Shown here: positions 2,865-5,044 of the stretch, in pieces | Layout: the number at the start of each line of letters is the position of its first letter | Position numbering within the stretch: position 1 is the stretch's first letter | Assembly: GCA_031255155.1 (NCBI GenBank) | Contig: JAIRTB010000038.1 | Location: 1-5,058 of the forward strand | Direction: 5' to 3' | DNA: 5,058 nt | Origin: Rickettsiales bacterium | GTDB taxonomy: Bacteria; Pseudomonadota; Alphaproteobacteria; Rs-D84; CACZYB01 | The notes under the pieces: generated by a model | Databases searched by the model: none | What the model was told of the DNA's origin: nothing | Seen by the model: the letters and a program-made list of their open reading frames with translations, nothing else | Made by a program: the position numbers and the translations under genes

Positions 2865-4244
2865 CTAGCCCACCTGTTTTTCGATGTCGTCGATTATTTG
2901 GGAGAGGGCCGGCTGGACCTCTATCATCTGTCTTACACGCCGCACGGCGTGCAGAATCGTCGCGTGGTCGCGCCCGAACGCCCGGCCCAATTCCGGCAGC
3001 GATTTCGTGGTCAGCATCCTTGCCACATACATGGCAACCATGCGCGGAACCGCTATCGAGCGCAGCTTCCTTGCCCCGTCCATTTCCCCGACGGCCACGC
3101 CCCAGCGGTCCGCCACCGCCTTTTTTATATCGGCTATGGAAACCGTCCGGCTATTATACGCCAATATATCGTCCAGCGCACGCCGTATCCCTCCAAGCGT
3201 CGGCTTTTCGCCAAGCAGGACCGACCGCGCGGACAGGCGGTTCAACGCACCCTCTATCTCGGCCGGCGAGCGCGAGATTTTCGACGCCAGAAACTCGGCC
3301 ACGCCCGAATCGAACTCCAACCCCAGCCCGGCCGCCCGACGCCGCAAAAATTCCAGCCTAAGCCCGTAATCCGCGTCGTCCATGCCCAGGACCAATCCCC
3401 TCGACAGGCGCGTTTTCAGCGAATCGGGAAGACCCTCTATATTGACCGGCGCCGCGTTCGCCGACACCACAACCTGGCGCCCGTTCGACACATAGAAATC
3501 CACCAAATGGAACAGCTCGCGCGAGATATTGTCCTTGCCCGCGAAAAACTGAACATCGTCGACGACAAGAACCTCGGCCGACTTGTAATCCTCTTTGAAC
3601 GACACGGCCGTCCTATCCCTAAGCGCCTTGACGAACCCGTTCACGAACCCGTCCGCCGTCGAATAGACCGCCCGGCGCCCCCCGCCCGCGCACCCGTTCG
3701 CGAACGCTTGGAGCAGGTGCGTCTTGCCCTGGCCCGCGTTCGCGTGGACCACTATCGGATTATACGACGAATCGCCCAGCGCACGCCGAAGCGCCGCCAC
3801 GGCAAGCGCGTTCCCATCGCCCTGGACAAATGTATCGAACGAAAACCTTTCGCTTGTCTTGGAGCCGACGAAAAAACCGTTCGCCGCCGCGGGGGGCGCG
3901 GCCGGAGCCCCGCCCAGCTCCGCCCGCCCAGCGTCGTTCGCCGCGGGCATCGCGCCCACCGACACCGACACCCTCTCGACCCCATAGCGCGACGCCGAAT
4001 CCAAAAGAAGGGAGGAATAGTTCCGCAAGACCCAATCCGCAACGAATTTCGTCGGGCTTTTCACGTAAAGAGTGCCAAGGTCAATCTTGTCGAAACAAAG
4101 CCTTTCCATCCACGCGGCATAAACCGCGGGGGAAACGCTTTTCCGAACAGTATCCTGGATCGAAAGCCAGACGGCATCGCCGCGCAAGGAGGAGCCTTGG
4201 GTTTCCCCAAGGCGCGGATCTGTATCGCAAGCTATGCCTGACAC
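2865..4244 (-). CDS. dnaA: Divergent chromosomal replication initiator DnaA, 459 residues
   Basis: DnaA is the AAA+ initiator that binds DnaA boxes and opens the origin. All four domains are visible. Domain I: about 24-97, with W26 and PTKFVADWV, whose F67 aligns with E. coli F46. Domain II: a short Ala/Pro-rich linker, about 98-130. Domain III: AAA+ from about 132, with Walker A ANAGQGKT (168-175), Walker B VLVVDDVQFF (225-234) and arginine finger R279 (E. coli R285). Domain IV: from about 366, with AVPRMVAMYVAR (398-409) and helix-turn-helix FGRDHATILHA (423-433). Length is normal (E. coli 467). Odd points against E. coli: sensor 1 D269 is A262, box VII R281 is S275, sensor 2 R334 is A328, and FGGRDHTT has lost one residue and reads FGRDHAT. 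The start is GTG, chosen because AGGAGA lies 5 bases upstream and domain I is complete. It has no dnaN neighbour; it diverges from the RNase D gene. Whether it is the sole initiator or a paralogue cannot be told here. Confidence 0.95.
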   Translation of the reverse strand: MSGIACDTDPRLGETQGSSLRGDAVWLSIQDTVRKSVSPAVYAAWMERLCFDKIDLGTLYVKSPTKFVADWVLRNYSSLLLDSASRYGVERVSVSVGAMPAANDAGRAELGGAPAAPPAAANGFFVGSKTSERFSFDTFVQGDGNALAVAALRRALGDSSYNPIVVHANAGQGKTHLLQAFANGCAGGGRRAVYSTADGFVNGFVKALRDRTAVSFKEDYKSAEVLVVDDVQFFAGKDNISRELFHLVDFYVSNGRQVVVSANAAPVNIEGLPDSLKTRLSRGLVLGMDDADYGLRLEFLRRRAAGLGLEFDSGVAEFLASKISRSPAEIEGALNRLSARSVLLGEKPTLGGIRRALDDILAYNSRTVSIADIKKAVADRWGVAVGEMDGARKLRSIAVPRMVAMYVARMLTTKSLPELGRAFGRDHATILHAVRRVRQMIEVQPALSQIIDDIEKQVG

Positions 4245-4432: not shown

Positions 4433-5044
4433 ATGAAAAACAAAATCATATATTTAGAGGGCGACATCGCCAAGGAATCAATCCGCGGCGATTCGATCGC
4501 CATCGACGCCGAAATGACCGGGCTGTCCCTTATGCGCGACAGGCTATGCACCGTCCAAATCGCCACGGACGGCGGCCCAGCCTTTGTGATCAAGCTCGAC
4601 CCGCCCTATGACTGCCCCAACCTGAAACGAATCCTGAACGACAGGCGAATCGTGAAAATAGGCCACTTCATCCGCGCCGACATGGCCATGATACAAAAAT
4701 GCCTGGGCATAGAAATCGAGAATGTATTCTGCACCAAGATCGCCTCGCGCCTATGCCGCACTTCCAGCGACAAGCATTCCCTCGGCGCCCTTGTCCGCGA
4801 GATCTGCGGGGTCGAGCTTGACAAAGACGAGCAGACAAGCGACTGGGCCGGGCCTTTGTCGCAAAGGCAGATAGAATACGCCGCCGCCGATGTCATCCAC
4901 CTGCACCGAATCCGCGACGAGCTTGCGCGACGCCTTGAACGCGAGGGGAGGACGGAGCTTGCCCGGAAGTGTTTCGACTTTCTGCCCGCGCGCGTCCGCC
5001 TCGACCTCGGCGGATTCGGAGAGTGCGACATTTTCGCGCACTAA
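4433..5044 (+). CDS. rnd: Short RNase D-like DEDDy 3'-5' exonuclease, 203 residues
   Basis: RNase D enzymes trim 3' ends of tRNA precursors and other RNAs from the 3' end in the cytoplasm with two metal ions. The three exonuclease motifs are present: Exo I IDAEMTGL with D25 and E27; Exo II KIGHFIRADMAMI (75-87) with D83; Exo III YAAAD with Y149 and D153, the Tyr marking the DEDDy class. The signature CTKIASRLCRTSSDKHSL (100-117) and the end RLDLGGFGECDIFAH match, from memory, the short alphaproteobacterial RNase D group. At 203 residues it lacks the two HRDC domains of the 375-residue E. coli enzyme; this is normal for the group, not a truncation. The ATG at 4433 is chosen over longer in-frame readings because AAGGAG precedes it and the domain begins here; upstream codons overlap dnaA. 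It diverges from dnaA. In many alphaproteobacteria the next gene is lptC; only 14 bases remain here to judge that. Confidence 0.92.
   Translation: MKNKIIYLEGDIAKESIRGDSIAIDAEMTGLSLMRDRLCTVQIATDGGPAFVIKLDPPYDCPNLKRILNDRRIVKIGHFIRADMAMIQKCLGIEIENVFCTKIASRLCRTSSDKHSLGALVREICGVELDKDEQTSDWAGPLSQRQIEYAAADVIHLHRIRDELARRLEREGRTELARKCFDFLPARVRLDLGGFGECDIFAH

Follow-up and report, generated by a model that had tools for sequence, protein, structure and literature searches.

Can a bacterium keep DnaA as its replication initiator and lose a residue on which hydrolysis of the bound ATP depends? Hydrolysis of DnaA-bound ATP is regarded as a central brake on bacterial replication, and the question is raised by a dnaA gene of a Rickettsiales bacterium (genome G000) carried on a contig of 5,058 nucleotides, the whole of which is called the window here. 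In the encoded protein alanine occupies the position of the sensor 2 arginine (E. coli Arg334), and the Walker motifs and the arginine finger are kept. The protein is a genuine DnaA, and its loss of the sensor 2 arginine is both real and rare. Our best reading is that of a lineage dismantling its DnaA ATP switch, a switch taken apart several times in this order of small-genome Alphaproteobacteria, which is probably Rs-D84 of GTDB. The features of the gene are as follows.

2865..4244, minus strand: dnaA, 459 residues from a GTG (start codon uncertain), with TIGR00362 and Pfam matches
3993..4175, minus strand: domain I (DnaA_N), residues 24-84, PF11638 at 43.4 bits
3390..3851, minus strand: domain III AAA+ core, residues 132-285, PF00308 at 141.9 bits
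2934..3137, minus strand: domain IV, DNA-binding, residues 370-437, PF08299 at 75.5 bits
3723..3725, minus strand: Walker A Lys174, kept, codon AAG
3555..3560, minus strand: Walker B Asp229-Asp230, kept, codons GAC GAT
3456..3458, minus strand: sensor 1 Asn263 (E. coli Asp269), codon AAC, placed by gap-free alignment
3420..3422, minus strand: box VII Ser275 (E. coli Arg281), codon TCG, placed by alignment
3408..3410, minus strand: arginine finger Arg279 (E. coli Arg285), kept, codon CGC, placed by alignment
3261..3263, minus strand: sensor 2 Ala328 (E. coli Arg334), arginine lost, codon GCC, at the beginning of a predicted helix (327-344)
3270..3272, minus strand: Arg325, three residues ahead of sensor 2, a possible stand-in, codon CGC

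The window contains one DnaA open reading frame, unbroken across its 459 residues. Domains I, III and IV are present in order, with PF11638 (DnaA_N), PF00308 (Bac_DnaA) and PF08299 (Bac_DnaA_C) each exceeding its cut-off, the TIGR00362 equivalog cut-off is narrowly passed (346.6 versus 343.9 bits) and the protein has the DnaA fold. A database copy begins 19 residues later, which leaves the GTG start uncertain and the residues discussed here unaffected. Identification as Hda was rejected, Hda being an AAA+ domain of about 230 residues whereas this protein has domains I and IV as well; the Hda model TIGR03420 gives it 108.4 bits versus a cut-off of 194.8, a cut-off that decides little alone given that all matches in our survey of 289 genomes of the class fell short of it. 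A second DnaA in G000 (509,588 bases in 100 contigs, estimated to be 70% complete) was ruled out, as a profile search of this incomplete genome gave a single match, the window protein.

BLASTP against E. coli K-12 DnaA (NC_000913.3) gave an alignment without gaps over E. coli residues 235-429, from Walker B into domain IV, and the codons of the key residues were read directly from the window DNA. Because no gap intervenes, the correspondences R281 to S275, R285 to R279 and R334 to A328 are unambiguous. An earlier, sequence-only reading of the window had proposed the box VII and sensor 2 replacements together with retention of K174, D229/D230 and R279, and alignment and codons bear out all of these assignments. 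It had also paired Asp269 with Ala262 (SDR with SAN), a misalignment by one residue: E. coli S-D-R (268-270) lies opposite A-N-A (262-264), which places Asp269 at Asn263, and alignment to B. subtilis DnaA (8btg) gave the same register with Asn263 opposite the equivalent aspartate. The loose ATP binding deduced from that pairing falls with it, the residue being asparagine, the usual sensor 1 residue of the order (42 of 53). The surroundings of sensor 2 also differ, reading R-S-P-A in the window DnaA and S-N-V-R in E. coli.

To place these residues among relatives, the best 120 of 1,563 listed homologues were scored, the window copy included. At sensor 2, 117 have Arg and two have Lys, which leaves the window DnaA as the single one with Ala; Arg occupies the arginine finger in 118 and box VII in 113, with sensor 1 being Asp in 112 and Asn in seven. 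Of 31 other alphaproteobacterial genomes requested, 24 yielded a whole DnaA, and all 24 proteins retain both the sensor 2 and the finger arginine. In these samples the switch-residue changes belong to this lineage, and the lone alanine among the listed homologues is not chance scatter. Within the window's family (f1) the arginine finger is kept and the box VII arginine is lacking in all nine genomes having this part of the protein. Sensor 2 is Arg in seven of the nine, a congener of the window's bacterium (G001) among them, Ala in G000 and Gly in a second congener (G002), and the loss is thus confined to the window's genus within the family. The box VII change was rejected as a sign of lost control, since five of the nine genomes that share it have Hda and both arginines. 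The DnaA tree favours G000 with G001 (92/90) and does not reject G000 with G002 (p 0.056), and hence the genus has seen either one or two losses of the sensor 2 arginine. In P0005 and P0006, database proteins from the window's branch, sensor 2 is Lys and the finger arginine is replaced by Ile.

Across the order, DnaA was aligned from 55 genomes, 53 of which span the region. Sensor 2 is His in 39, Arg in 11 and Ala, Gly or Lys in one each; the arginine finger is Leu in 34, Arg in 12, Val in four and Ile, Glu or Phe in one each; and sensor 1 is Asn in 42, Ser in six, Asp in two and another residue in three. On a DnaA tree from which the four trait columns were excluded and in which 15 of the 39 extracted genomes of family f5 were used, at least four changes at sensor 2 and a minimum of three at the arginine finger are needed. 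The TIGR00362 cut-off is reached by only 13 of 142 genomes of the order. Domain IV of the window DnaA also departs from E. coli: the helix-turn-helix signature DHTT reads DHAT (A428 at the position of E. coli T435), Ala also being present in 48 of the 52 sequences from the order that include the site, and the position of E. coli R399 is Lys in nine of the 52, the window DnaA among them. DNA contacts may be altered by these changes.

The largest family, f5, probably consists of Ca. Enterousia-type bacteria. Its counts come from 39 genomes whose DnaA loci were fetched, out of 120 f5 genomes with a match, and from the best 120 of 922 listed proteins, two sets that overlap. Sensor 2 is His (as in L021 of G027) and the arginine finger position is Leu, Val or Ile in all 39 genomes and all 120 proteins. 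The box VII arginine is kept in 36 of the 39 genomes, the Walker A lysine is intact in every row covering the site, and Walker B is altered in two genomes only, with Gly at the second Asp. All 120 genomes with a match score under the TIGR00362 cut-off. The invariant histidine argues for a rebuilt site and not for free decay. In a separate observation, in all 23 f5 genomes the best Lon family match breaks off between positions 562 and 582 of the 795-position model (e.g., G036:C4:9605-11248), within open frames of 585-623 residues in 19 genomes and 778-875 residues in four, and the C-terminal protease part seems to be absent or too diverged to match.

What such changes might do can be gauged from E. 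coli. According to the accessible part of PMC5742627, Arg334 is important for intrinsic ATPase activity, for regulatory inactivation of DnaA (RIDA) and for datA-dependent DnaA-ATP hydrolysis (DDAH) and is dispensable for initiation complexes; both intrinsic ATPase activity and the ATP-dependent activity of the complexes require Arg285, and Arg281 represses intrinsic ATPase activity and is required for DDAH. With both Walker motifs and the arginine finger kept, the window DnaA would bind ATP and would assemble at the origin through R279. With sensor 2 occupied by Ala328 and no Hda detected, ATP hydrolysis would be slow and DnaA would be kept in its active ATP form, such that initiation would be limited by the amount of DnaA (synthesis, titration and proteolysis) and not by conversion of ATP-DnaA to ADP-DnaA. 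From the residues, the domain make-up, the lack of detectable Hda in the genomes searched and the repeated changes across the order we infer ATP binding, poor hydrolysis, an active state and replacement control, and we lean towards this hydrolysis-poor, ATP-binding initiator controlled by amount as the account of the window DnaA. Poor ATP hydrolysis stands as a prediction, and persistence in the ATP form is a sound one on the strength of what is published on E. coli R334A and Caulobacter R357A (accessible parts of PMC5742627 and PMC3193534). As G000 encodes a full-length Lon-type protease (open reading frame of 926 residues) and GcrA, proteolysis and transcriptional control are possible there. 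In G001, G003 and G004 the search for GcrA gave nothing, nor did that for Lon in G003.

Hda is the partner that helps to switch DnaA off. The Hda model matched 288 of the 289 genomes surveyed across the class, most of them twice, and by frame length among the matches listed such pairs are usually one DnaA and one Hda. The 41 relatives searched yielded genes of Hda size in all six genomes of genus g4 and in G018 (family f6), and a partial gene at a contig end in G015; for the matches of G006, G018 and G015 one search marked a single internal stop and the other marked none in the same genes. Four g4 proteins begin MQQLPL, MMRQLPL, MQQLPL and MQQLSL, which we take to resemble the clamp-binding motif of Hda. 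The three incomplete assemblies of the window's genus (G000, G001 and G002; 70, 88 and 92% complete) gave no Hda, nor, among the 41 relatives, did G003, G004, G011-G013, G016 and G020, and none was detectable in the 23 f5 genomes searched. A weak match in one of the latter (G023, C3:157894-158097) was rejected as Hda, the frames there resembling RuvB by eye. With the sensor 2 arginine gone and no Hda found in the genus, the earlier proposal that control by Hda-type hydrolysis is unlikely holds.

Presence of Hda was then tabulated against the arginines for 18 genomes of the order, five of them from f5, leaving out G020 (72% complete), G004 and G010 (fragmentary DnaA). Both arginines are present in 7 of 7 scorable genomes with Hda, and one or both are lacking in 9 of the 11 scored without it. 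Outside the order 16 genomes with a single match and one with none were collected, of which seven were dropped, six for having no DnaA (their single match may be Hda) and G394 for having only remnants. This Hda-negative set is rough, being drawn from single matches, with only nine candidates from the first look scored in almost all genomes. Loss of Hda was rejected as a predictor of arginine loss elsewhere in the class. G394 is itself an unusual case, an alphaproteobacterium of 1.5 Mb in one contig (99% complete) whose only dnaA sequences are remnants with several stop codons (C1:723103-723928); dnaA is intact in G319 of the same genus.

Several points weigh against the hydrolysis-poor initiator. 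A test on independent pairs gave one or two in the expected direction and none against, for which significance is impossible, and with so few independent events none is claimed for the association of Hda with the arginines. G001 and likewise G003 keep the arginine with no detectable Hda, and outside the order all 10 Hda-negative genomes keep both arginines, so loss of Hda alone does not bring the change. At 70% completeness, Hda may simply be missing from the G000 assembly. The activity is a prediction from sequence, and Arg325 might stand in for sensor 2. Moreover, the box VII, sensor 1 and T435 to Ala changes are shared with relatives, and hence the E. coli mutant data may not transfer.

The larger finding is that the order as a whole has been changing its DnaA ATP switch. 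A bolder form, which we put forward only tentatively, is that this whole order of small-genome gut Alphaproteobacteria gave up the ATP/ADP switch. Most lineages would have lost Hda; the sensor 2 arginine would have given way to Ala, Gly, Lys or an invariant His and the finger to a hydrophobic residue across the largest family, with some members left without DnaA. The result would be a hydrolysis-free initiator counted by amount alone, with the f5 histidine given a new job in a rebuilt nucleotide site.

The same changes could instead reflect relaxed constraint, DnaA being no longer the replication timing factor of the order (or on its way out) with its switch residues drifting, in which case the protein would be weakly active or only a DNA-binding or helicase-loading factor. 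The repeated alteration of sensor 2 and the arginine finger fits this explanation, as does the G013 DnaA, which has lost the Walker B Asp pair. No DnaA was found in G011 (97% complete), G012, G091, G124 and G140 (82-97% complete) by TIGR00362, Bac_DnaA_C or an order-specific profile, weak matches to the last in G011 and G012 sitting in frames of 685 and 636 residues; fragments of DnaA lie at contig ends in G098 and G010. Dependency on DnaA has been lost several times in cyanobacteria, according to the accessible part of PMC7198777. However, the window DnaA retains the Walker motifs, the arginine finger and domain IV and passes, if narrowly, the equivalog cut-off, and a histidine invariant in 159 of 159 f5 rows (the 39 genomes plus the best 120 of 922 proteins) is not drift. 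The DnaA-box pattern TTATNCACA is also commoner than its mirrored control in G000 (20 versus 6), G001 (27 versus 8) and G002 (38 versus 17), as it is in G027 (68 versus 33). The excess is less clear in G009 (76 versus 61), G018 (55 versus 42) and G011, a genome in which DnaA was not detected (38 versus 31). On balance we consider relaxed constraint unlikely. The boxes gave no convincing cluster on the short contigs of G000 by which an origin could be located.

Normal hydrolysis with another residue substituting, most simply Arg325 ahead of the sensor 2 helix, would let the switch work without Hda. Eight family relatives with this part of the protein have Ala, Thr or Ser at that position, which makes the arginine distinctive, but the position precedes the predicted helix and is occupied by Ala in G002, whose sensor 2 is Gly; we judge such a substitution improbable. 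An assembly or sequencing artefact, to which a contig of this size in so fragmented and incomplete an assembly might be prone, is most improbable, since no Arg codon lies fewer than two base changes away from GCC and a single-base error cannot explain Ala328, the frame is intact over 459 residues and G002 likewise lacks the arginine.

Two other open reading frames flank dnaA, both on the plus strand. That at 4433-5044 encodes a 203-residue protein with a 3'-5' exonuclease domain, scoring under the RNase D cut-off. That at 618-2861 (747 residues) has no Pfam or NCBIfam match and by eye has a signal-like start and an Ala-rich middle, its GC fraction falling from about 0.6 to 0.3 along the frame. 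Its 3' end forms an AT-rich stretch (2550-2860; 31% GC in a window of 57% GC) in which a DnaA-box match, TTATGCACA, lies at 2796-2804, just past the end of dnaA.

A lineage naturally lacking the sensor 2 arginine, with close relatives having both the arginine and Hda, allows a natural test of whether replication can be timed by initiator titration alone. No report of natural loss of these residues was found among the papers listed in a search of titles and abstract openings, with most subscription journals outside its reach. The nearest likeness is the E. coli R334A laboratory mutant, which also has Ala at sensor 2 with the Walker motifs and arginine finger kept; in the window DnaA, by contrast, the alanine is the natural sequence and is accompanied by box VII Ser, sensor 1 Asn and no Hda that could be found. 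Caulobacter DnaA R357A and HdaA, the RIDA of Alphaproteobacteria, concern the same class and the same residue. According to the accessible part of PMC3193534, the R357A mutant over-initiates, as do cells depleted of HdaA, and R357A is not tolerated as the only dnaA, whereas the window DnaA naturally lacks this arginine and its Hda partner was not found. The f5 proteins resemble the window DnaA in having no sensor 2 arginine, a sensor 1 that is usually Asn and no Hda found, and differ from it in their invariant His, the hydrophobic residue at the arginine finger and the box VII Arg of most genomes. Cyanobacteria and symbionts that have lost dependency on DnaA (PMC7198777, accessible part) share the repeated weakening or loss of DnaA control, but in those organisms the gene or the need for it is lost, whereas the lineage of the window DnaA has kept dnaA and lost residues of the ATP switch.
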